This document shows positions 4,614 through 51,163 of a stretch of 64,000 nt of DNA, in pieces. The notes under the pieces are model-generated. The model was given only the letters and a program-made list of their open reading frames with translations. It was not told the DNA's origin and did not search any database. The position numbers and the translations under genes were made by a program. The stretch covers positions 1-64,000 of the forward strand of contig MGUI01000074.1 of the NCBI GenBank assembly GCA_001799895.1. The letters run 5' to 3'. This DNA comes from Elusimicrobia bacterium GWD2_63_28. GTDB taxonomy: Bacteria > Elusimicrobiota > Elusimicrobia > Elusimicrobiales > UBA9959. Each line of letters begins with the position of its first letter. The first letter of the stretch is position 1.

Positions 4614-4664
4614 GCATTATTTTAGCCTAAACCGCCCCCCAATTTAATAGAATATCCAAATAAT

Positions 4665-5869
4665 ATGACCGACATTTTCGACAAGTGCCGCAGTTTCAAC
4701 ATTGTTAAGCAGCTCATAGCCAACGGCATCTACCCTTATTTCAAGGAACTGGAGTCCGACAGGCCCCCGAGATCACCATAAAGGGCAAGAAGTTTATCAT
4801 GTTCGGCTCCAATAACTACCTGGGCCTCGCCAACGACCCCCGGATGAAGAAGGCCTCCATAGAGGCGGTGGAAAAGTTCGGCACCGGCGTGGCCGGCTCG
4901 CGCTTCCTCAACGGCAACACCGTGCTGCATACGGAGCTCGAGCGCAAGCTCGCCGCCTTCAAGGGCCGCGAAGCCGCCCTCATTTACGCCACCGGCTACC
5001 AGATGAACCTCGGCGTCGTCTCCTCGCTGGTCGGCAAGGGCGATTTCGCCATAGTCGACAAGCTCAACCATGCCAGCATCCTCGACGGCTGCCGCCTCTC
5101 CCACGGCGAACTGCGCCGCTTCCGCCACAACGATCCCGAAAACCTCGACAAAGTCCTCAAGGAGATCGGCCCCCGCCACGGCAAGCTGGTCATCGTGGAC
5201 GGCGTGTTCTCCATGGAAGGCGACATCGCCCCCATCCCCGAAATTTCCAAGGTCTGCCGCAAGCACGGCGCCCGCCTGATGGTGGACGACGCGCACGCCA
5301 CCGGCGTGCTGGGCAAGCACGGCCGCGGCACCTGCGAGCATTTCAACCTTTCACACAAAGACGTGGACCTGGTGGTAGGCACCTGTTCCAAGTCCCTGGC
5401 CGCCGTGGGCGGCTTCGTGGTGGGCGACGCGGACATCCTGCACTACGTCCAGCACATCTCCCGCTCCATGATCTTCTCCGCGGCCCTGCCGCCGGCCTCG
5501 GTGGCAGCCATCTCCAAGGCGCTCGATATCATAGAGGCCGAGCCCCAGCGCATCAAGAAGCTCTGGGACAACGCCGCCTACCTGATGAAGCGCTTCAAGG
5601 CCATGGGCCTCAACACCGGCGAGACGCAGACCCCCATCATCCCGGTCATCATCGGCGACAACGAAAAGACTTTCATGCTCTGGCGCATGCTTTACGACCA
5701 CGGCCTGTTCACCAACCCGGTGGTCAGCCCGGCGGTGCCGCCCAAGCGCGCCATGCTGCGCGTCGTGGCCACCGCCACCCACACCAGGGAACAGCTGGAC
5801 CGCGCGCTGAACATTTTCGAGGGCTGCGTGAAGAAAGTCCTCCATAAAAAACCGTCCCTGGTGAAATAA
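4665..5869 (+). pseudogene. PLP-dependent alpha-oxoamine synthase (serine palmitoyltransferase-like), frameshifted
   Basis: Members of this family condense an amino acid with an acyl-CoA or acyl-ACP (serine palmitoyltransferase, KBL, BioF). The coding sequence starts at an ATG (MTDIFDKCRSF...GIYPYF), a typical family N-terminus. It runs into TAA after about 38 codons, because the frame changes at a run of five C at 4764-4768. Adding one C would restore about 401 residues, the family length. From 4799 the frame is intact. Visible motifs are GSNNYLGL, HASILDG (His stacking on PLP), DDAHATGVLG and the PLP lysine in CSKSLAAVGG (codon at about 5390). The strong match to lipid-type members and the GNAT gene 11 bases downstream favour a sphingoid-base role. 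Either a real frameshift or a homopolymer sequencing error is possible. Confidence 0.8.
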
Positions 5870-5880
5870 CCCCCGTTCTT

Positions 5881-7586
5881 ATGTCCATAGAAATCCGCGC
5901 ACTCGCCGAGGCGGAACTCGGCGCTTTCATAGACTATCCCTACGACCTGTTCAGGGGCCATCCCTACTGGGCGGGCGAGCTGAAGAAAGACGTGCGGCAC
6001 CTGCTGGATACCGGCCACCCGTTCTGGCGGCACGGCGAGCGCAGGCTTTTCATGGCCTTCAAAGCCGGCCGCCCGGCGGGGCGCGTGGCCGCCATCGTCA
6101 ACAGCGCCCACAATAATTTCCATAACGACAAGGCGGGCTTCTTCGGCTTCTTCGACTGCGAGAACGACAAGGAGACCGCGGCGGCCCTGCTGTCGGCCGC
6201 CTGCGCGTGGCTCAAGACCCGCGGCATGGACTCCGCCATCGGCCCGGTGAACCCCTCCACCAACGAGACCTGCGGCATGCTGGCCGAGGGCTTCGACGGC
6301 CCGCCGATGGTGATGATGCCCTACACCCCTCCCTATTACCTGGAGCTCGCCGAGGCGGCCGGGTTCGCCAAGGCCAAGGACCTGCTTGCTTTCCGCGTGG
6401 ACGTGGCCCACGGCTTCGGCGAGCGCTTCGAGAAGATAGTGCAGCGCCTCACCCGCGGCAAGGACATCAAGGTGCGCCACGTGGACGCCGGCGGCCTGGA
6501 CAAGGCCATCGCCGAAGTCAAAGAGATCTACAACTCCGCGTGGGAGAAGAACTGGGGTTTCGTGCCCATGTCCGACGCAGAGTTCAACGACATGGCCGCG
6601 GCCATGAAGCCGGTGCTCAAGCCCGAATACCTCTATTTCGCCGACGTGGACGGCAAGCCGGCCGCCTTCGGGGGCGCGTGGCCGCCATCGTCAACAGCGC
6701 CCACAATAATTTCCATAACGACAAGGCGGGCTTCTTCGGCTTCTTCGACTGCGAGAACGACAAGGAGACCGCGGCGGCCCTGCTGTCGGCCGCCTGCGCG
6801 TGGCTCAAGACCCGCGGCATGGACTCCGCCATCGGCCCGGTGAACCCCTCCACCAACGAGACCTGCGGCATGCTGGCCGAGGGCTTCGACGGCCCGCCGA
6901 TGGTGATGATGCCCTACACCCCTCCCTATTACCTGGAGCTCGCCGAGGCGGCCGGGTTCGCCAAGGCCAAGGACCTGCTTGCTTTCCGCGTGGACGTGGC
7001 CCACGGCTTCGGCGAGCGCTTCGAGAAGATAGTGCAGCGCCTCACCCGCGGCAAGGACATCAAGGTGCGCCACGTGGACGCCGGCGGCCTGGACAAGGCC
7101 ATCGCCGAAGTCAAAGAGATCTACAACTCCGCGTGGGAGAAGAACTGGGGTTTCGTGCCCATGTCCGACGCAGAGTTCAACGACATGGCCGCGGCCATGA
7201 AGCCGGTGCTCAAGCCCGAATACCTCTATTTCGCCGACGTGGACGGCAAGCCGGCCGCCTTCGTGCTGCTGCTGCCGGACCTCAACATCCCCCTGAAGGC
7301 GGCCCACGGCAGTCTTACCCCCCTGACCCTGCTGCCCTTCCTGTACCGCCTGTACTTCAAGATGCGGGCGGGCCGCATGCTGACGCTGGGCGTCAAGAAA
7401 GAATTCCGCGGACGCGGCCTGGAAATGCTGCTGATAAAGAAGGGCTTCGAGGCCGGGCAGAAGATGAAGTGGGTTTACGGCGAGATGTCCTGGACGCTGG
7501 AAGACAATACCCAGATAAACGGCGTCATAGAGGCCATAGGCGGGCGCGTCTACCGCAAGTACCGCGTTTACGAGAAAAAGATCTGA
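5881..7586 (+). pseudogene. GNAT-like acyltransferase gene disrupted by an internal 593-bp tandem duplication
   Basis: The frame opens with MSIEIRALAEAEL and follows a GNAT-related family: GPVNPSTNETCG, MMPYTPPYY, then a C-terminal GNAT half with VKKEFRGRGLEMLL, the acetyl-CoA loop. A perfect 593-bp tandem repeat (593 is not a multiple of three) shifts the frame, so translation from 5881 ends at 6843 after about 60 out-of-frame residues. Removing one copy restores 370 residues ending KYRVYEKKI. Proteins of this type often sit next to serine-palmitoyltransferase-like genes. From memory, reported bacterial ceramide synthases are described as GNAT-fold acyltransferases, so N-acylation of a sphingoid base is a reasonable but untested guess. 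It is a paralog of the gene at 32954-33979. Confidence 0.8.
6078..7263. repeat. Perfect tandem duplication, two units of 593 bp
   Basis: Unit one is 6078-6670 and unit two is 6671-7263. The two look identical, judging by the same translations in every frame. A 12-bp sequence, AAGCCGGCCGCC, occurs just before the first unit (6062-6073) and near the end of each unit (6655-6666, 7248-7259), giving microhomology for slippage or unequal exchange. The lack of any divergence means a very recent event or an assembly artefact. Confidence 0.92.
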
Positions 7587-7640
7587 GCCTCCCGCCCGCG
7601 GTTTTAATCATTCTGTAACCTTTATTTAACCCTTCCCGGG

Positions 7641-7655
7641 TATAATTCTAATATG
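7641..7655 (+). promoter_or_regulatory. -10 box immediately before a start codon (leaderless gene)
   Basis: A consensus TATAAT at 7641-7646 ends six bases before the ATG at 7653. No Shine-Dalgarno sequence fits in between. Transcription would begin at or next to the A of the ATG. A convincing -35 is not visible. Confidence 0.6.
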
Positions 7656-8870
7656 CGTTTCTCGGACCTTAAGAAACTTAAAGAGGAGCTCCCGCGCCGC
7701 AGGCCCGCGCCCGCCGCCCCCGCCCCCCAGGCTGAGGCCCCCGCGCCCCAGCCACCGACTCCGCCAATCTCCGCGCCGGAACCGGCGGCCGCCCTTCCGG
7801 CGGCGCCTGCCGCCGCGGATAAAGCGGAAAGCCGCAGGCGCGCCCCCGGCCCCAGGCTGATGAACAGCCAGGAACCGGCGGCAGCCGGGGAGTCCCGGTC
7901 CGCCTCCTTCGAAGAACAGACTTCGCGCGCCAGGGAAGTATACGCCCGCCTCCTGACCCAGGCCGGGGCCTTTCTTAAAAGCGTGGACGAGCCCTACACC
8001 GAAAAGTACGAATCCGTCTCCGCGTCCTGCGCCCTCGCCGCCGAAACGCTGAAGGTCAACTCGGCACTTTTATATTTCACCTCCTATTCCACAGCCGACG
8101 ACTACCTGCGCGGGCACACGGCCAACACCACGCTGCTGGCGCTGGCCATGGGCCTGGAGGCCAACCTGGACCCCGCCGAACTCCGCCTGCTGGGCTTCTG
8201 CGCCATGGCTCACGACATAGGCATGACTGAATATTCTTCCCTCTACAACAGGGAGGACCGGCTGCGCGACGAAGATTTTTCGGAGATGACGCTGCACGCC
8301 GAGGCCGGCGCGGCCAAGCTGGACCGCATCGTGGACCTGGATTACAAGATCAAGGAGCGCGCCCGCCGGATCATACTGCAGACGCACGAGCGCGCGGACG
8401 GCTCCGGCTACCCGGACCACGCTTCCGACGAGGAGCTGGACCCGCTGGCGCAGCTTATCAGCATCGCCGACGCCTACGAGGCCATGACGCACCCGAGGGC
8501 CTGGCGCGGCGCCATGGAGCCCCCGGACGCGATCAAGGACCTGATAGCCAGGGAGGGACGCGGCTTCAACGCCGGGGCGGTCAAGCTGCTGATCTCCGTG
8601 GTCTCGCTGTTCCCCCCCGGCTCCGTGGTGGAACTTTCCACGGGCGAGATAGCCCGGGTGCTCAAGGTGAACCGCGGCTCGCTTACCCGCCCGCTGGTCC
8701 AGATAGAACTGGACCCGGACTTCAACGCGGCGCCCCCCCGGCCGCTGGACCTGGCCAGGCATCAGCTGACCGCCATCGAGCGCTCCGTCGCCGCCGCGGA
8801 GCTGGAAGAGCGCAACCCCAAGTACGCGGCCAGGCTGGACCTCGCCCGCTGGTGGGTGGACTGGCAATGA
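7653..8870 (+). CDS. HD-GYP domain protein (cyclic-di-GMP phosphodiesterase family)
   Basis: The N-terminal 90 residues are proline/alanine-rich and disordered. The HD-GYP domain covers about 120-320: metal ligands GHTANT (H155) and AHDIGM (H187, D188), then THERADGSGYP (about 243-253), the GYP signature. Family members hydrolyse c-di-GMP to pGpG or GMP. A C-terminal region of about 80 residues (PGSVVELSTGEIARVLKVN) matches the tail often seen after HD-GYP domains. There is no membrane segment, so it is probably cytoplasmic. The stop overlaps the next start (ATGA), pairing it with a response-regulator receiver protein. The PilZ gene at 12650 could be a c-di-GMP effector. Confidence 0.9.
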   Translation: MRFSDLKKLKEELPRRRPAPAAPAPQAEAPAPQPPTPPISAPEPAAALPAAPAAADKAESRRRAPGPRLMNSQEPAAAGESRSASFEEQTSRAREVYARLLTQAGAFLKSVDEPYTEKYESVSASCALAAETLKVNSALLYFTSYSTADDYLRGHTANTTLLALAMGLEANLDPAELRLLGFCAMAHDIGMTEYSSLYNREDRLRDEDFSEMTLHAEAGAAKLDRIVDLDYKIKERARRIILQTHERADGSGYPDHASDEELDPLAQLISIADAYEAMTHPRAWRGAMEPPDAIKDLIAREGRGFNAGAVKLLISVVSLFPPGSVVELSTGEIARVLKVNRGSLTRPLVQIELDPDFNAAPPRPLDLARHQLTAIERSVAAAELEERNPKYAARLDLARWWVDWQ

Positions 8871-9274
8871 CCAAGAAACAGCTCCTGTTCATAGAGGAGG
8901 AGGGCTACGTGGTCGCCAGGGTCGAAGAGATCCTGTCCGGCTTCCCTTTGTTCGAGGTGACGCGCGTGGACGACGCCGAGAGCGCGAGGGCCCTGCTGGA
9001 GGAGAAAGCTTTCGACGTGGTAATTACGGATATCTACCTGCGCGGGGCCAGCGGCCTGGAGTTTTCCTTCAAGGCGCGGGAGAAGAACAAGGACGCCTGC
9101 GTCGTCATTATAACCGGCATAGACAATTCGTACATGGCCGCCAAGGCCGTCAAGGAAGGGGCTTTCGATTACGTGGTAAAGCCGCCCGGGCTGGAGCGGC
9201 TGGCCAATATACTGAAGATCGTTTCCCTGGTGCGCGGCCTAGGCGCGCCCGAAGAGGGAGCGCCGCAGCCTTAA
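8867..9274 (+). CDS. Single-domain response regulator (receiver)
   Basis: The 135-residue CheY-like receiver has the phospho-Asp in VVITDIYLRG (about residue 53), the conserved Thr in IITG and the Lys in VVKPPG. The usual N-terminal acidic pair is replaced by EEE. There is no output domain. The ATG overlaps the stop of the HD-GYP gene, so the pair probably works together, the receiver controlling the phosphodiesterase in trans. An upstream GTG would add five residues, but the overlapping ATGA start is preferred. The last 36 bases are one copy of the direct repeat flanking the transposase element, so the C-terminus may have been altered by insertion. Confidence 0.85.
   Translation: MTKKQLLFIEEEGYVVARVEEILSGFPLFEVTRVDDAESARALLEEKAFDVVITDIYLRGASGLEFSFKAREKNKDACVVIITGIDNSYMAAKAVKEGAFDYVVKPPGLERLANILKIVSLVRGLGAPEEGAPQP
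9238..9273. repeat. Left copy of 36-bp direct repeat flanking the transposase element
   Basis: It matches 10338-10373 at 34 of 36 positions. This copy encodes the end of the response regulator. The other copy, read on the minus strand, encodes the end of the nucleotidyltransferase-like gene. It looks like an unusually long target duplication. Confidence 0.8.
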
Positions 9275-10218
9275 ACATTAGGGGACGTTGTTGAGTTGTT
9301 GAGTTTTTCCCAATCCCCGAAATACCCCCGCCCACGCAAAATCAACCTCGAAACTCCGCTCCGGCTTATACGCAGTTCTTCCGCCAGCTCCTCGCCACTC
9401 ACACCAGAGCTCTCTTTGCGAAGGTAGCAGTATATCGCCCGCGCATATGAAACCGCCCGCGCGCGTGTGAGACCGAATATGTTTCCCCGCTCCACACCAG
9501 AAATGCGCTCAGCCAATGCCAGTACTGTATCCCTGCTCTGGGCCTGTAATATGGCTTTATCGACAGGAACCGGCGCAGATACAAGCCAGCCGTCCTGAGT
9601 TTCTTGATCTGGAGAAGTCTGTTCGGGCGCTTCAGGCAACTCCTCTCGCTCAAGTCGCCCCGCTGCCTCCCTCGCGGCTATCTCGCGCAGGTAGTTCCTC
9701 ACGGCGCCCTGCTCAGTTTCGCCAAAATGCTTAAGCAATTCGCGCCTGTCCAAGATATCTTTCCCGCACAGCCCCAGCGCAGCGGCATGTCCGCACCACC
9801 GGTAATCCTTCAGTCCGGACAATTCTTTGACAAGCCCGGCCCTAAGCGGGTTCAGATGGATGTACGGGACCAGCTCCCGTAAATATTTTTCAGACAGGCA
9901 GATTATGGATTTGTACCTGTTCTGGAACAAGTGCCCCGCGCGTTCGTGTTTGAGGTTATAGGTAGTCGCGTACCCGGTTAGAACGTGGCTCATCAATTCA
10001 GACAGCGGCCTGTCCCCGCGCATTAGGAACACGTGAAAGTGGTTAGGCATCAGGCACCAAGCAAGGCATTTGCCGCCGGAGCGGCGGAGCCATTCCGCCA
10101 GGCGCCCGTAAAAATCTTCATAGTCGGATTCACCGACGAATATCGCGCGCCTCTCTATCCCGCGCGACATCACGTGGTAGTACTGTCCCTCTATGTCTAT
10201 CCTGGCTTGTCTCGGCAT
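9271..10218 (-). CDS. REP-associated tyrosine transposase (Y1_Tnp / TnpA_REP family)
   Basis: A 315-residue single-strand DNA transposase-like protein. The N-terminal Y1 domain shows YYHVMSRG, the HUH motif in MPNHFHVFL and the catalytic tyrosine region HLFQNRYKSI, followed by YIHLNPLRAGLV. The C-terminal half carries a helix-turn-helix-like segment (SGEELAEELRISRSGVSRLI) resembling DnaA-type or bacterial-transposase HTHs. Family members nick and join hairpins at palindromic repeats. The gene lies between 26-bp inverted repeats, and its final codons run into the left one. Its stop lies opposite the response-regulator stop. Confidence 0.93.
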   Translation of the reverse strand: MPRQARIDIEGQYYHVMSRGIERRAIFVGESDYEDFYGRLAEWLRRSGGKCLAWCLMPNHFHVFLMRGDRPLSELMSHVLTGYATTYNLKHERAGHLFQNRYKSIICLSEKYLRELVPYIHLNPLRAGLVKELSGLKDYRWCGHAAALGLCGKDILDRRELLKHFGETEQGAVRNYLREIAAREAAGRLEREELPEAPEQTSPDQETQDGWLVSAPVPVDKAILQAQSRDTVLALAERISGVERGNIFGLTRARAVSYARAIYCYLRKESSGVSGEELAEELRISRSGVSRLILRGRGYFGDWEKLNNSTTSPNV

Positions 10219-10332
10219 ACCCCACCCCCGCTAATAGGATAGCAGAAGACCCCGACAACGGCTTGTCGGGGTCTTTTTGCAGATGAGGGCGAATTCTCCG
10301 GCCAATAACTCAACAACTCAACAACGTCCCCT
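9280..10332. mobile_element. Transposase element with 26-bp perfect inverted ends
   Basis: The ends 9280-9305 and 10307-10332 are exact reverse complements, beginning AGGGGACGTTGTTGAG. The element carries only the Y1 transposase. It sits between two 36-bp direct repeats (9238-9273, 10338-10373) and separates two convergent genes. The MITE-like element at 46352-46457 shares the terminal AGGGGACGTTG. Confidence 0.9.
10246..10278 (+). terminator. Rho-independent terminator inside the transposase element
   Basis: A 13-bp perfect stem (AAGACCCCGACAA with its complement) and a 4-base loop are followed by TTTTT on the plus strand. It lies upstream of the minus-strand transposase. It would stop plus-strand transcription crossing the element from the HD-GYP/regulator operon. 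Confidence 0.75.
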
Positions 10333-10337
10333 ACCTG

Positions 10338-10373
10338 CCTAGGCGCGCCTGAAGAGGGAGCGCAGCAGCCTTA
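10338..10373. repeat. Right copy of 36-bp direct repeat flanking the transposase element
   Basis: The partner of 9238-9273, with two mismatches. Its minus strand encodes the last 11 residues and stop of the nucleotidyltransferase-like gene. Confidence 0.8.
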
Positions 10374-11190
10374 GGGGGCGCAGGGCGTAGGCGGCCGCCG
10401 TGGCCGAGCCGTAGCGCCGCACCATGAAGCGTTTTTCCGGCGCGGCGTATTTCAGCAGCAGGCCGGGCCGGTGCAGCACCGGCAGCAGGTACTCGAGCGG
10501 GACGGAATGTTTGCGGGCGGCTTTCTCAAAGAAGGCCGCCTTTATTTTTTCCAGACCGCGCGGCTCAAGTTCCGCCAGCGCGCCCTCCGGGACGACGAAA
10601 GGCCCCGCGGCCAGCCGCCGCACCAGCGGCCAGAGCACCGGCCGCAGGCCGTAGAGGCCGGTCTTGCGCGCCACCAGCGCCCAGAATTTTTCCCAGTCTC
10701 CGGGCGCGTGCCCGGCTATGCGGGCGCAGTCCTCCAGGGCCCGGGGCGTAAGTTCGCCGTGATGCAGGAGCGGGTGCGCCGCGGCGTGTATGAACAGGTC
10801 GGCCAGGTTCAGCACCGGGCCGCGCCGGCCGGGCTCCAGGCCCCAGTCAAAGAGCTCGTCGGTGTGCTTTATATGCCAGAGGCCGGTATGCAGGTCCAGG
10901 ATCACCGGCGGGGCGCTGCCGGCGGAAGGCCTGAGCCAGGCGTCGGAGCTGTTCTCCATGGGCCTGTAGCCCAGGCTTTGCAGCAGCCCTTCGAAAACCG
11001 CCAGATCCCCGGGCCGCAGCAGCAGGTCCGCGTCGCTCATGCCGCGCTCGCCGATCTGGTAAATGCCGGCCTCCAGCAGCGCCGCGCCCTTCAGCGGCAC
11101 CACCTCGATACCCGCGCCGGCGGCGGCGGCCCGCGCCTCTTCCAGCGCGCCCAGCAGCATGATCTCCCTGCCCGCTATAGCTTTATCCAT
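10339..11190 (-). CDS. Nucleotidyltransferase-family protein (NTP_transf_5-like)
   Basis: The 283-residue protein has the pattern of the uncharacterised nucleotidyltransferase family PF14907: VVPLKGAALL near residue 36, then GERGMSDADLLL near 52-62, whose two Asp residues would bind metal. An ILDLHTGLWH segment follows. Members occur in polysaccharide or capsule loci, but here there are no such neighbours, so the substrate is unknown. The C-terminal 100 residues are basic and helical. The 3' end coincides with the right 36-bp repeat, so the extreme C-terminus (LRSLFRRA) may reflect the insertion event. Confidence 0.65.
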   Translation of the reverse strand: MDKAIAGREIMLLGALEEARAAAAGAGIEVVPLKGAALLEAGIYQIGERGMSDADLLLRPGDLAVFEGLLQSLGYRPMENSSDAWLRPSAGSAPPVILDLHTGLWHIKHTDELFDWGLEPGRRGPVLNLADLFIHAAAHPLLHHGELTPRALEDCARIAGHAPGDWEKFWALVARKTGLYGLRPVLWPLVRRLAAGPFVVPEGALAELEPRGLEKIKAAFFEKAARKHSVPLEYLLPVLHRPGLLLKYAAPEKRFMVRRYGSATAAAYALRPLRLLRSLFRRA

Positions 11191-11207
11191 ATCGCTTACA
11201 CCTAAAC

Positions 11208-11244
11208 AAACGCGGGGACCGGCGCTCCCGCCATCCCCGCGTTT
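11208..11244 (-). terminator. Terminator after the lysine-rich secreted protein gene
   Basis: An 11-bp perfect stem (AAACGCGGGGA with its complement) and a 15-base loop, ending in GTTTG T-rich sequence on the minus strand. It lies directly downstream of the gene ending at 11261. Confidence 0.6.
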
Positions 11245-11260
11245 CCGAAGTTCTCCGGGC

Positions 11261-11836
11261 TCAGCGCTTGCCGCCGGAGCCGGGCCGGTCCGCCTTCGCG
11301 GGCCTGGAGGGCTTTTCAGCCTTGCCGCCTTTCTCGGCTTTGCCGCCCTTCATGGCCTTCTCCTTCTTCATGGCCTTCTCTTTCTTTACTTTTTCTTCCT
11401 TGATTTTTTTGCGGGCGCCGTCGGCGGCCTTCCTGGCCTTGCTGACGGCCGGGCCCAGCTTCAGGCCCAGTTCTTTGGCGACCTTGCCCCAGCCCATCAC
11501 GGGCGGGCCCTGCCGCAGGGCGACGACCTTCTGCACGTTCTCTTCGGTAATGCCCCCGGGCAGGCCCTGGGCCAGAGAAAGGGCCGCGGCCATGCCGCCG
11601 TAGCTGAGGTTCTTCTCAACCAGGCCGGCGATGCGGGCGTCATCCACTTTGAAGTCGGCTTTTATTTTCTCGACCACGGCCTTTTGCCCTTCGGGTTCCG
11701 CGGCGTCCTTGTTCAGGTCGGCTTCCACCTTGTCCATCTTCTTCTCTTCTACGGCCTGTTCCTGGGCGAAGGCCGGGACGGCCGCCGCCAGCAGGAAAAG
11801 ACCGGCGAATATCAACTGGTTTTTTTTCATGTTCAT
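11261..11836 (-). CDS. Secreted lysine-rich protein of unknown function
   Basis: A clear signal peptide (MKKNQLIFAGLFLLAAAVPAFA, cleavage after AFA near residue 24) starts a 191-residue protein. The mature part has an acidic, helical first third, a middle segment (VMGWGKVAKELGLKLGPAVSKA) and a low-complexity tail of repeated KEKAMK and GGKAEK units rich in Lys and Gly. The tail could bind polyanions such as nucleic acids or LPS. The start could be the first Met or the Met two codons later. It lies 20 bases downstream of the outer-membrane-like gene, probably in one operon. I do not recognise a family. Confidence 0.7.
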   Translation of the reverse strand: MNMKKNQLIFAGLFLLAAAVPAFAQEQAVEEKKMDKVEADLNKDAAEPEGQKAVVEKIKADFKVDDARIAGLVEKNLSYGGMAAALSLAQGLPGGITEENVQKVVALRQGPPVMGWGKVAKELGLKLGPAVSKARKAADGARKKIKEEKVKKEKAMKKEKAMKGGKAEKGGKAEKPSRPAKADRPGSGGKR

Positions 11837-47518: not shown

Positions 47519-47770
47519 ATGAAAAAAGAGTTTCTTATCAAGTCGCTGAACCTGAACGCCGCGGAGGCGCTCACGCTGGAGAAAGCCGAAGACAGGATGG
47601 AGTTCCAGGTCATGTTGGGCATGGACAACTTTTTCGCGACCACCTGCGATGACAAGTGCCGGGTAGTCTGCAACCCCTTCGGCCAGGGCACTCCCTGCAA
47701 CCCCATGACGCCGCCGACCGTCCCGGATGTTCCGCCGCCCACCCAGGTCCCCTGCCCCCAGCTGAAGTAA
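47519..47770 (+). CDS. Small five-cysteine peptide, candidate RiPP precursor B
   Basis: 83 residues. The leader-like first 40 (FLIKSLNLNAAEALTLEKAED, then RMEFQVMLGMDNFF) is amphipathic. The core-like part has cysteines at 43, 47, 51, 60 and 79 and a Pro-rich stretch (PPTVPDVPPPTQVP). No signal peptide. It lies immediately upstream of a radical SAM/SPASM gene and an M50 peptidase gene, the usual arrangement of a ribosomally made, post-translationally modified peptide. The core cysteines and Thr/Asp/Asn neighbours could take part in thioether cross-links. The modification type is unknown. Confidence 0.75.
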   Translation: MKKEFLIKSLNLNAAEALTLEKAEDRMEFQVMLGMDNFFATTCDDKCRVVCNPFGQGTPCNPMTPPTVPDVPPPTQVPCPQLK

Positions 47771-47785
47771 GCAGGGTTTGAATCC

Positions 47786-47817
47786 AGAACCCCGGAGCGC
47801 TCAAGCTCCGGGGTTCT
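47786..47817 (+). terminator. 13-bp hairpin between precursor and maturase genes (attenuator)
   Basis: A perfect stem AGAACCCCGGAGC with its complement and a 6-base loop lies 15 bases after the peptide stop. Only a weak T-rich tail follows, so it may partly terminate or protect the 3' end of the short precursor transcript. Either would give more precursor than maturase. Confidence 0.7.
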
Positions 47818-47838
47818 ACTTTATCCCGAGAGGTTAAA

Positions 47839-49266
47839 ATGAAAATAGAGAATTACAGGACCAGCCGCTACCTTAACGTGGCCGATCTCGGAGACGGAGA
47901 CTTCAGCCTGCTTTTTAACGGCATTAACGGCTGCCTGGACGAGGTGCCCAAAGAACTCGCGGCGCTGCTCGCTTCCGGGGACGCGGACCGCCTCAACCAA
48001 CTGGCGCCGGCCAATCTCGAGTTTCTCAACAAACGCGGCCACATCACCAGGCTAACGCCCGAAAAAGAGCTGGAGCGCTTCCGCGAGTTGGCCACCGCCA
48101 TCCATGAAAAAAGATGCGCCGCCAAGCAGCCCGGCGGGCTGCTGCTGCTGCTCAGCTACAACTGCAACCTGGCCTGCCCGTACTGCTACCAGCAGAAGCA
48201 CCGGCCGCACAAATCCAAAGCCGTAATGACCCCGGAGATGGTGGACCTGCTGCTTGACCGGCATTTTTCCTCCATCCTGCCGGACACGAATAAGCAGGTC
48301 CTCTATTTCTACGGCGGGGAACCCTTCCTCCCTGCCCATGAGCCGGCCATAAGGCGGGCCCTGGAGCACGCAAAAAAGCTCGGGCTGCACTGCGAGGCGA
48401 TCAGCAATACCACGATGCTGGAGTCCATGATCGACATTTTCGGCGAAGGCGCCGGCAAGGTTAACCAGGTGCAGGTATCCCTGGACGGCTACAAAGAAGA
48501 ACATGACCAGTCCCGTGTAGCCGTTTCCGGCGTTCCCACTTTCGACAAGATCATAGCCAACATAAAGCTCCTGCTCTCGCGCGGGACCGGAGTCTCGGTA
48601 AGGCTGAACCTGGACAGGAAAAAGCTGGACACTACGCCCCGGCTGCTGGAATTCCTCAAGACGGAGGGCATAGCCGGCCACAAGAAAGTCAGGGTTTACG
48701 CCACCCCCATCCACGACAATTTGTGCAAGGTGGACGATTCGGACTTCATGGACATTAAGGCGCTCTCGGAAAAGGTTTTAAACATGGGCATAGACCTGGA
48801 GCACCCGGTCAGCCTCCGGGGCAACGAGTTCCAGTACCTTTTCAGCCTGCAGAAGGGAACGGGGCTCACCCGGACCACCTACTGCATGCAGACCACTCAG
48901 ACCACTCTGGTCGCGGACGCCTTCGGCGACCTTTACGCCTGCTTTGAAGAAGCCGGCTACGATAAGTGGCGCGTCGGCCACGTCGGCGAGGCCGGCGTGG
49001 AATTCTTCCCGCAGCGGGAGATCTACCAGAAAAGGCATATCGCCAACATGCCCGACTGCCTGGCCTGCTCCGTCGCCCTGGCCTGCGGCGGCCAGTGCGG
49101 CGTCATGTGCAGGGCCAAGACCGGGGACCTTCTCAAGCCCAAGTGCAACGATATGAAAGAGACGCTGCTGGCCGGGCTGGCCCACGCCTACAACAAGTAT
49201 AAGGCCGCCGGTAAACCAGCGCCCGCCAAAGCGGAAGAACCCCTGTCAGGTTCCGCCCACGACTGA
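47839..49266 (+). CDS. Radical SAM/SPASM peptide maturase
   Basis: 475 residues. An N-terminal region of about 90 residues could be a leader-recognition (PqqD/RRE-like) segment. The radical SAM motif is CNLACPYC (C109, C113, C116), with FYGGEPFLP as SAM site. The C-terminal SPASM part shows CMQTTQTT...DLYACFE, then CLACSVALACGGQCGVMC and KPKCND, enough cysteines for two auxiliary clusters. Enzymes of this class make thioether, C-C or epimerised residues in peptides. The preceding gene is the likely substrate. The tail (about 30 residues) is Lys/Pro/Ala-rich. Confidence 0.92.
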   Translation: MKIENYRTSRYLNVADLGDGDFSLLFNGINGCLDEVPKELAALLASGDADRLNQLAPANLEFLNKRGHITRLTPEKELERFRELATAIHEKRCAAKQPGGLLLLLSYNCNLACPYCYQQKHRPHKSKAVMTPEMVDLLLDRHFSSILPDTNKQVLYFYGGEPFLPAHEPAIRRALEHAKKLGLHCEAISNTTMLESMIDIFGEGAGKVNQVQVSLDGYKEEHDQSRVAVSGVPTFDKIIANIKLLLSRGTGVSVRLNLDRKKLDTTPRLLEFLKTEGIAGHKKVRVYATPIHDNLCKVDDSDFMDIKALSEKVLNMGIDLEHPVSLRGNEFQYLFSLQKGTGLTRTTYCMQTTQTTLVADAFGDLYACFEEAGYDKWRVGHVGEAGVEFFPQREIYQKRHIANMPDCLACSVALACGGQCGVMCRAKTGDLLKPKCNDMKETLLAGLAHAYNKYKAAGKPAPAKAEEPLSGSAHD

Positions 49267-49282
49267 GGCCGCCGCTTTCCTC

Positions 49283-50416
49283 ATGTCCGAAACTCTTTAC
49301 GAGAACTTCCTGAAAGGCGAATACGCCGTCGAGAACGGCGACGCTTCGCTGATCATAACCAAGTCCTCCTGCTACAGGGTGAAAGAGGAAACCATAGCAC
49401 TGGTTGAGAACCTGCCCGCGCGGGGAGATAAGCAACACTTCATAAAGGCCATGGAAGGGCTCGGCATAGCGAAGGCCGCTCCCATCTTCGACAGGCTGCT
49501 GGCTATCGGGGCGCTCAGGCTCAAAGAGAAGAAAAAACTCAGCGGCGCGCTGAGCGCAATCGTAAGGCCTGATTTCCGGCTTATCCCCGCGGCCTGGCAG
49601 GAGAAGGCTTTCAGGGCCCTGGGCCTCGCCCCTTCCCCGGAATGGCTGGGCCGCAACTTCGGCAAGGTCTTCGCCCTGGCCGCGGCGGGCCTGCTGCTGA
49701 GCCTCGCCGTTTCATACACCGGCCTCTACCCGGCGCTGGCCAAGCTGTCCCACGGCGCCCCGGCCACCCTCACCATGTTCGCCCTGGTCTTCCTGGGCAG
49801 CGTCATACACGAGCTGGGCCATTCTTACGCCGCGGCCGCGGCCGGCATAGCTTTCCGGCCCATAGGTTTTTCCATCTATCTTTTCCTGCCGGTTTTCTAC
49901 GCTAATGTTTCCGGCATGGAACGGCTGCCCCTAAAGGAAAAAGCCGCCATTGATCTGGGCGGATTTTTTACCGAGTCGGCCTACCTGCTGCTCCTGCTTG
50001 CCCTCTGGTTTTTCACCAAAGACCTGCTTTTCCTGGCGGCCGTAAAATGGATGTCCCTTATCATCGTGTTCAACATGAACCCCCTGCTGCGCACCGACGC
50101 CTACTGGCTGTACAAGGACTTCAGGAAAAGTTTCCCCGGCCACAGGCTGGCGGACTGGTTCCATTACCTGTACCTGGCGGCTTTCCTCGGCTTCTCGCTG
50201 TACCTGTTCAAATACATCTATCTGCAGGCGGGCACGATCCTCGCCCTGCTCTCTTCGATCTGGGCCAGCCCGGCCCTGCTGCTGAGCGAAGGCTACAAGA
50301 TCATACTGGGCTTTTACCTGATCATCATCTTCTTCACCGGCGGGGCGAAACGGCTGGAGGAAACGCGGCAGGAATGGCTGGAAATGAAAGGCGGCAAGGC
50401 TCCGGCGCGCGCCTAG
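49283..50416 (+). CDS. M50-family membrane metallopeptidase of the RiPP locus
   Basis: 377 residues. The first 120 residues are soluble and winged-helix-like (YRVKEETIALVENLPARGD, FDRLLAIGALRLKEKKK). Next come membrane helices with the zinc motif VIHELGHSYAAAAAG (H176, E177, H180) and the third ligand in NPLLRTDAYW (D272), the layout of site-2-protease-like enzymes found in peptide-maturation loci. It could remove the leader or help export. It starts 16 bases after the maturase gene, and both share strand and terminator. Confidence 0.9.
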   Translation: MSETLYENFLKGEYAVENGDASLIITKSSCYRVKEETIALVENLPARGDKQHFIKAMEGLGIAKAAPIFDRLLAIGALRLKEKKKLSGALSAIVRPDFRLIPAAWQEKAFRALGLAPSPEWLGRNFGKVFALAAAGLLLSLAVSYTGLYPALAKLSHGAPATLTMFALVFLGSVIHELGHSYAAAAAGIAFRPIGFSIYLFLPVFYANVSGMERLPLKEKAAIDLGGFFTESAYLLLLLALWFFTKDLLFLAAVKWMSLIIVFNMNPLLRTDAYWLYKDFRKSFPGHRLADWFHYLYLAAFLGFSLYLFKYIYLQAGTILALLSSIWASPALLLSEGYKIILGFYLIIIFFTGGAKRLEETRQEWLEMKGGKAPARA

Positions 50417-50435
50417 GGAATCAAAACGGGGCAAG

Positions 50436-50470
50436 AAAAAAGGCCGGCTCATTGAGCCGGCCTCTTCTTT
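50436..50470. terminator. Bidirectional terminator of the RiPP-type locus
   Basis: A 10-bp stem AGGCCGGCTC / GAGCCGGCCT with a 3-base loop, an A run before and a T-rich run after, lies between the M50 gene (+) and the secreted-protein gene (-). Confidence 0.85.
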
Positions 50471-50482
50471 TACAGCCGCGGC

Positions 50483-51163
50483 TTACAGCCCGAAGGGCGT
50501 AGGCTCGGCGGTGGGATAGCAGGGCGTATGTATCGGGCCCACCCACTGGTTGGGGGCGGGGATCACCGGGAACGGGTTGGGCCGGCTGATGAAGTTGCCC
50601 TCGGGGCAGCGGTAGATGCAGGTATTGCCGGCGTCCATGGCCAGCGTGCAGGTGCCGCTGATGGCCTTGGGCTGCTCGATGAGGCCCTTCGGGGTCAGGT
50701 AGATACCGTCGAAGGTTGTCTTGGTCTTATACTTGTACACGGCGGAGACGGGGCGCAGGTTCAGGAAGCGGCCCCACAGGCACACTTCGAAAACTTCTTT
50801 CTGCCCGGGCTTCAGCTCGCGCGGCGCGGTTACTATCACGCGGGTGGTTTCGCGGAAGTACTCGGTGCGCGGGAAGCAGATCTGGCCGGCCGGGTAGCCC
50901 ATGTTCTGGCAGTCCTGGTAGGTTTCCATCGCGCTCAGGCTGATGTCGGCCGAGGTCAGCGGGCTCTCGGCGGTGAATTCCACTGTCTTGCAGTCCCGGC
51001 TGCTATAGGTCGGTATGCCGAACTTGGTCTCGGGAACATCTATCTTGACGGCGGAGGCCTGCTGCTTGAAAGATTTTATGTCCAAGGCCTGTTCGAAGCT
51101 CACCTGGGCCTGCGCCATAGAGGCGGCGGCCAGCAGGGATACAACGGCTATCATAATTTTCAT
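50483..51163 (-). CDS. Secreted cysteine- and proline-containing protein, unknown
   Basis: 226 residues with a signal peptide (MKIMIAVVSLLAAASMAQA). The mature part is strand-rich (TVEFTAESPLTSADISLSAM, TTRVIVTAPRELKPGQKEVFEVCLWG), like an immunoglobulin-type fold. It has eight scattered cysteines and a Pro-rich end (RPNPFPVIPAPNQW). No family recognised. It is convergent with the RiPP-type locus, and three TGGACC repeats lie upstream (51245-51294). Confidence 0.65.
   Translation of the reverse strand: MKIMIAVVSLLAAASMAQAQVSFEQALDIKSFKQQASAVKIDVPETKFGIPTYSSRDCKTVEFTAESPLTSADISLSAMETYQDCQNMGYPAGQICFPRTEYFRETTRVIVTAPRELKPGQKEVFEVCLWGRFLNLRPVSAVYKYKTKTTFDGIYLTPKGLIEQPKAISGTCTLAMDAGNTCIYRCPEGNFISRPNPFPVIPAPNQWVGPIHTPCYPTAEPTPFGL

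Follow-up and report, generated by a model that had tools for sequence, protein, structure and literature searches.

What is a short, cysteine-rich reading frame doing beside a radical SAM enzyme and an M50 peptidase in Elusimicrobia bacterium GWD2_63_28? The window, a 64,000-nucleotide stretch of contig MGUI01000074.1, comes from a 3.29-Mb draft genome in 74 contigs. An earlier note on this DNA had described a compact three-gene unit, and the reading frames, their order and their spacing (47519-50416, forward strand) are as it claimed: a precursor gene of 83 aa (47519..47770; ORF call, leader family and coding comparison), a radical SAM/SPASM peptide maturase of 475 aa (47839..49266) and an M50/site-2-type intramembrane metalloprotease of 377 aa (49283..50416), the latter two assigned from ORFs, profiles and structural models. 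The gaps are 68 nt between precursor and maturase and 16 nt between maturase and protease. A terminator with a T-rich tail follows (50441..50472, forward strand), and calling it shared was fair, as its 10-bp GC hairpin (50441-50463; z -4.8 by terminator scan and folding) sits between the unit and a convergent gene at 50483-51163. The reading as a RiPP locus is now strongly supported: given a conserved leader followed by variable cores in 19 loci, a SPASM fold with an RRE and a second RRE on the protease, the unit is very probably a RiPP cassette with leader-guided modification and cleavage, belonging to a family centred on the Elusimicrobiota. This is apparently a new and undescribed family of radical-SAM RiPPs; no report of the family or the cassette was found in the open-access literature (subscription papers were outside the scope of the search), where combining Elusimicrobia with radical SAM returned unrelated papers only. 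For a phylum in which few natural products have been characterised, this is an added RiPP family.

The precursor consists of a leader of about residues 1-32 (MKKEFLIKSLNLNAAEALTLEKAEDRMEFQVM) and a Cys-rich, Pro-rich core, with the five Cys of the earlier description at positions 43, 47, 51, 60 and 79. The earlier note could not match it to known sactipeptide, ranthipeptide or SCIFF precursors, and we found no Pfam or NCBIfam model that it matches. Its short length and want of database matches, and nothing more, would fit a chance ORF adjoining an unrelated radical SAM protein and peptidase. This explanation deserves almost no weight and was rejected, because the same leader stands upstream of the maturase in 19 loci and because conservation is specific to the frame: the closest precursor homologue is of equal length with 51 of 82 residues identical in frame, and there are stops in the other two frames. 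These two sequence comparisons show the precursor to be a real gene.

Reading upstream of each maturase, we collected 25 precursor-like ORFs across the 19 loci, which combine one common leader (consensus MxxxxIIKSLNLTxGExLTLEKAxDRMEFEAL) with highly variable Cys-rich cores of about 19 to 76 residues. All 21 aligned precursors have N11, L20, K22 and R26, and all share the first Cys of the core. Three precursors occur in locus L034 and two each in L026, L032, L040 and L075; the window's precursor is the sole member of the leader family in its own genome. Between the window and locus L046, whose maturases are 70% identical, 29 of 36 leader residues are identical as against 14 of 39 in the core, and the Cys spacing differs. 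Some two dozen natural precursors are thus available for one maturase family, with 2 to 12 Cys per core behind a near-constant leader, a set well suited to asking how a SPASM enzyme picks its cross-link partners. We also observed a predicted membrane protein of greater length whose C-terminal end is a leader-like segment with a Cys-rich core (L027 in genome G001, 9203-10528, minus strand), and cores ending in long TEPD or QP repeats that look like spanning linkers (L041, 8284-8601; L019, 333-635).

The maturase carries the pattern that defines SPASM enzymes, CX3CX2C (C109/113/116) plus CX9-15GX4C...CX2CX5CX3C...C (C349, G363, C368, C407, C410, C416, C420 and C436), and all ten Cys, three of the radical SAM motif and seven of the SPASM domain, are invariant in 19 homologues. 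The earlier note had raised the prospect of a maturase falling inside a family with a known non-peptide substrate; we found instead that the best-scoring NCBIfam models are peptide maturases, aligned over most of the protein and all far below their cut-offs. The best profiles are maturases of Cys-rich RiPPs, namely the geopeptide maturase TIGR04280 (126.9 bits, cut-off 400; best score of this model anywhere in the window's genome, 126.6 bits), CefB NF038107 (113 bits, cut-off 600), PapB NF047865 (108.9 bits, cut-off 340) and the TIGR04463 maturases (100 bits, cut-off 525). The best E-value to curated models among the 19 family maturases is 7e-41. That the family escapes every curated model for precursors or maturases counts against the RiPP-cassette reading. 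The maturases of the window, L026 and L046 form one clade (support 100/99).

An AlphaFold2 model of the maturase (pLDDT 78) has as its closest solved fold the SCIFF/thermocellin enzyme CteB (5why; Z = 20.9, rmsd = 5.6, 354 aligned, model residues 10-435), with TigE (8vpo) at Z = 18.4 (rmsd = 6.7, 406 aligned, model residues 2-465). Both share with the window's maturase the domain order RRE, radical SAM, SPASM, but are only about 20% identical to it. The N-terminal domain of the maturase (about residues 1-94), three strands followed by helices, aligned with the N-terminal domains of CteB and TigE, and that of CteB is a described RRE (PMC8172795). Since both alignments run through this domain, we read it as an RRE-like fold predicted to bind the leader.

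The protease likewise belongs to a recognisable kind. The HELGH motif and a distal Asp (NPLLRTDAYW) do not vary across 17 homologues, and with H176, E177, H180 and D272 invariant the protein has the HExxH, NPxxxxD and transmembrane core by which site-2/M50 proteases are defined. In its AlphaFold2 model (pLDDT 83) the transmembrane body aligned with SpoIVFB (8vjm; Z = 11.1, rmsd = 5.5, 188 aligned), mjS2P (3b4r; Z = 9.0) and RseP (Z = 8.9). The proposal in the earlier note that an extra N-terminal domain could recognise the leader is backed by residues 3-84, whose predicted fold resembles the RREs of McbB (Z = 6.8), MccB (6.2), the TigE N-terminus (6.2), NisB (5.7), PbtF (5.6) and PqqD (4.7), and also matches TruD and TbiB1, the whole set spanning Z = 4.5 to 6.8. 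These matches are individually modest (Z about 5-7), and a profile comparison found no sequence similarity between the RREs of maturase and protease, both of which weigh against the cassette reading, although the two domains may still be homologous. It is not any single Z value but the fact that most matches to the segment are N-terminal domains of RiPP enzymes that leads us to assign an RRE-like fold and to predict leader binding.

An RRE fused to a site-2 protease is no novelty on its own, since the daptide peptidase has this architecture (PMC10036551); the protease is a part of familiar type placed in a new context. Daptide MpaP (NF041824 daptide_HExxH), which cleaves off a RiPP leader, is likewise an intramembrane site-2 protease with an N-terminal RRE (PMC10036551); it is similar in total length and has a catalytic core that can be aligned with the window's protease, although the score of 41 bits is far below the cut-off of 300. 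Further, the window's unit lacks the decarboxylase, aminotransferase and methyltransferase of daptides, and a Cys-rich core replaces their C-terminal Thr. The epipeptide system (YydF/G/H, EpeXEP) also joins a radical SAM peptide enzyme to an M50 protease, EpeP, which is thought to cleave and export the epipeptide (PMC10885120). However, the window's protease scores 38 bits against the YydH/LiaK model NF058609 (cut-off 225), and whereas YydG is an epimerase, the window's maturase combines a complete SPASM domain with a substrate rich in Cys. A plasmid search with the protease returned distant M50 proteins only; one of them, on plasmid CP081100, could be aligned through the N-terminal region and was set aside because it lies in an efflux rather than a RiPP setting.

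Which modification the maturase installs was approached through the composition of the cores. We counted motifs in 17 representatives against shuffled versions of each core, in samples that are small and related, so the counts serve as a guide rather than proof. Thioether cross-linking is the likeliest chemistry, and one that we favour with some reserve, SPASM thioether maturases being a published precedent (PMC8172795, PMC9413430). Sactipeptides and ranthipeptides are defined by a thioether from Cys to an alpha or a non-alpha carbon. A ranthipeptide of the PapB/freyrasin kind, in which Cys would be joined to the side chains of Asp/Glu within CX3D/E motifs, might be expected from the PapB model, which matches all 19 family maturases and is among the best matches of the window's enzyme; the cores are also Asp-rich, and PapB accepts other Cys-Asp spacings (PMC9413430). 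Yet the PapB score is far under its cut-off, and CX3D/E is depleted in the cores (5 observed vs 12.3 expected) and missing from that of the window, which makes this product quite unlikely.

A sactipeptide (S to alpha-carbon) or a SCIFF-like peptide with Cys-Ser/Thr thioethers would suit CteB as the closest solved structure. It would also suit the enrichment of Cys-X4-Ser/Thr (21 observed vs 11.4 expected, p = 0.003), a spacing originally described in the SCIFF peptide Tte1186a (PMC8172795). We consider this possible but doubtful: two repeat-like cores, those of L032 and L040, supply much of the enrichment (13 vs 7.9, p = 0.04 in non-window cores when these two are removed), which is absent from the window's core, and the window's maturase scores 77 bits with the SCIFF maturase model TIGR03974 (cut-off 425), with no NCBIfam match for the precursor. 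Moreover, later work cited in PMC8172795 assigned the linked pair to Cys32-Thr34. Rather unlikely, too, is a product without thioethers, such as an epimerised, C-C linked or pearlin-like scaffold peptide whose Cys, once exported, would pair as disulfides or hold metal. The reactions catalysed by SPASM enzymes are many (PMC11002830), pearlin pathways also use M50 proteases (PMC10885120), and spaced Cys in CXXXC and CXC could bind metal or iron-sulfur clusters. The many spaced Cys without a single adjacent pair (0 observed vs 13.4 expected) nevertheless fit cross-linking of Cys one by one. In the window's clade CXXXC is enriched (6 observed vs 0.9 expected). Together, the core statistics speak against a plain PapB-type peptide, and thioethers arranged in some other pattern are left as the best guess.

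On the cassette reading, we propose that the N-terminal RRE of the maturase binds the conserved precursor leader and that the enzyme would then cross-link Cys of the variable core by SAM-derived radical chemistry, most likely as thioethers. The RRE of the protease would bind the same leader and bring the modified peptide to the intramembrane zinc site, and cleavage is predicted close to the point where the conserved leader stops, in the region of EFEAL/EFQVM (residues 30-36). The core would be released at the membrane, and cleavage may aid its export, as proposed for EpeP; that the window's three-gene unit contains no transporter gene is a point against the reading. Pairing a SPASM maturase with an RRE-guided intramembrane protease makes the hand-over of a leader between two RREs testable. 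Most sister loci add a signal-peptide TPR or a DUF4097 protein, whose probable task is to handle the product in the envelope or to sense it there. More speculatively, the family could be a new class of multiply Cys-cross-linked peptides, with linkages and rings unlike those of sactipeptides, ranthipeptides and SCIFF peptides, in which an RRE-guided intramembrane protease frees a fast-varying core at the diderm inner membrane, no dedicated transporter is needed, and a dedicated periplasmic TPR or DUF4097 partner takes up the product; we regard this fuller scheme as possible but less likely than not. The variable cores and patchy distribution suggest a role in antagonism or signalling rather than as a cofactor.

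Of 341 genomes from the phylum Elusimicrobiota, 15 encode the maturase (E 1e-80 or better), and an earlier search among relatives had given 15 of 101 genomes at E 1e-30. Nearly all carriers belong to one family, and the distribution is patchy even inside the genus; the nearest named relative of the locus is the Elusimicrobia MAG PEXN01000117. The gene order precursor-maturase-protease recurs across loci and none of the tested flanking genes of the window recur near other cassettes, so the cassette itself appears to be the unit. One further cassette is on the L046 contig (JANYIU010000299), which comes from a Holophagaceae MAG and is assigned to the Acidobacteriota; it is complete (5682-8555). 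A Der-like GTPase on this contig is 36-43% identical, over partial length, to the best Elusimicrobiota proteins, and 99 relatives of the genome yielded no close homologue and one distant one. Going by these sequences, transfer between phyla seems likelier than misbinning, but the contig may be chimeric.

The signal-peptide TPR gene lies between precursor and maturase in at least nine sister loci, and a DUF4097-type gene lies 3' of the protease in L029, L032, L040, L043 and, more weakly, L042. Neither was found in the window, L026 or L046 by similarity search or reading of gene maps. These three cassettes look like a reduced form of the unit. That the window lacks the TPR gene of most relatives speaks against the cassette reading, since its own unit might be cut down or work in another way. 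The convergent gene 50483-51163 (minus strand) encodes a secreted protein of 226 aa that contains 8 Cys and ends in a Pro-rich tail; it has no family match and no relatives near other cassettes, and was ruled out as the missing partner by its lack of similarity to TPR or DUF4097 proteins. In L035 we observed a relic of the TPR gene (8586-8754) retaining start and end regions only, next to an intact precursor, maturase and protease. A second radical SAM gene stands just 3' of the protease or maturase in L030 (9142-9996), L037 (4089-5138) and L075 (8796-9683), the last resembling the YydG epimerase family (49 bits).

Between precursor and maturase lies a strong GC-rich hairpin (about 47786..47818, forward strand) that the earlier note had passed over, for which folding of 47771-47838 gave -33 kcal/mol (z -4.8). 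It is absent from the output of the terminator scan, its T-run being too weak to score, and is probably an attenuator or mRNA-stabilising element. Folding revealed similar hairpins 3' of the precursors of L026 and L046; with these counterparts, a strong hairpin after the precursor suggests that precursor mRNA is probably produced or retained in surplus. A scan for sigma-70 promoters gave no match and is uninformative for this phylum.

The window's genome also holds a second, related cassette (L044, G000:C15:38000-54000, about 4629-11515, minus strand) with three short Cys-containing ORFs that share a different leader (ESNIIESVEFLAxxDLLVAELDxRLSFxA), a SPASM maturase 32% identical to that of the window, an M50 protease, a 557-aa protein without a family and another protein, of 585 aa, that shows similarity to radical SAM enzymes (PhpK-like, 60 bits). 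Elsewhere in the same genome (G000:C14, about 6300-47000), at least nine radical SAM reading frames fall within 41 kb.
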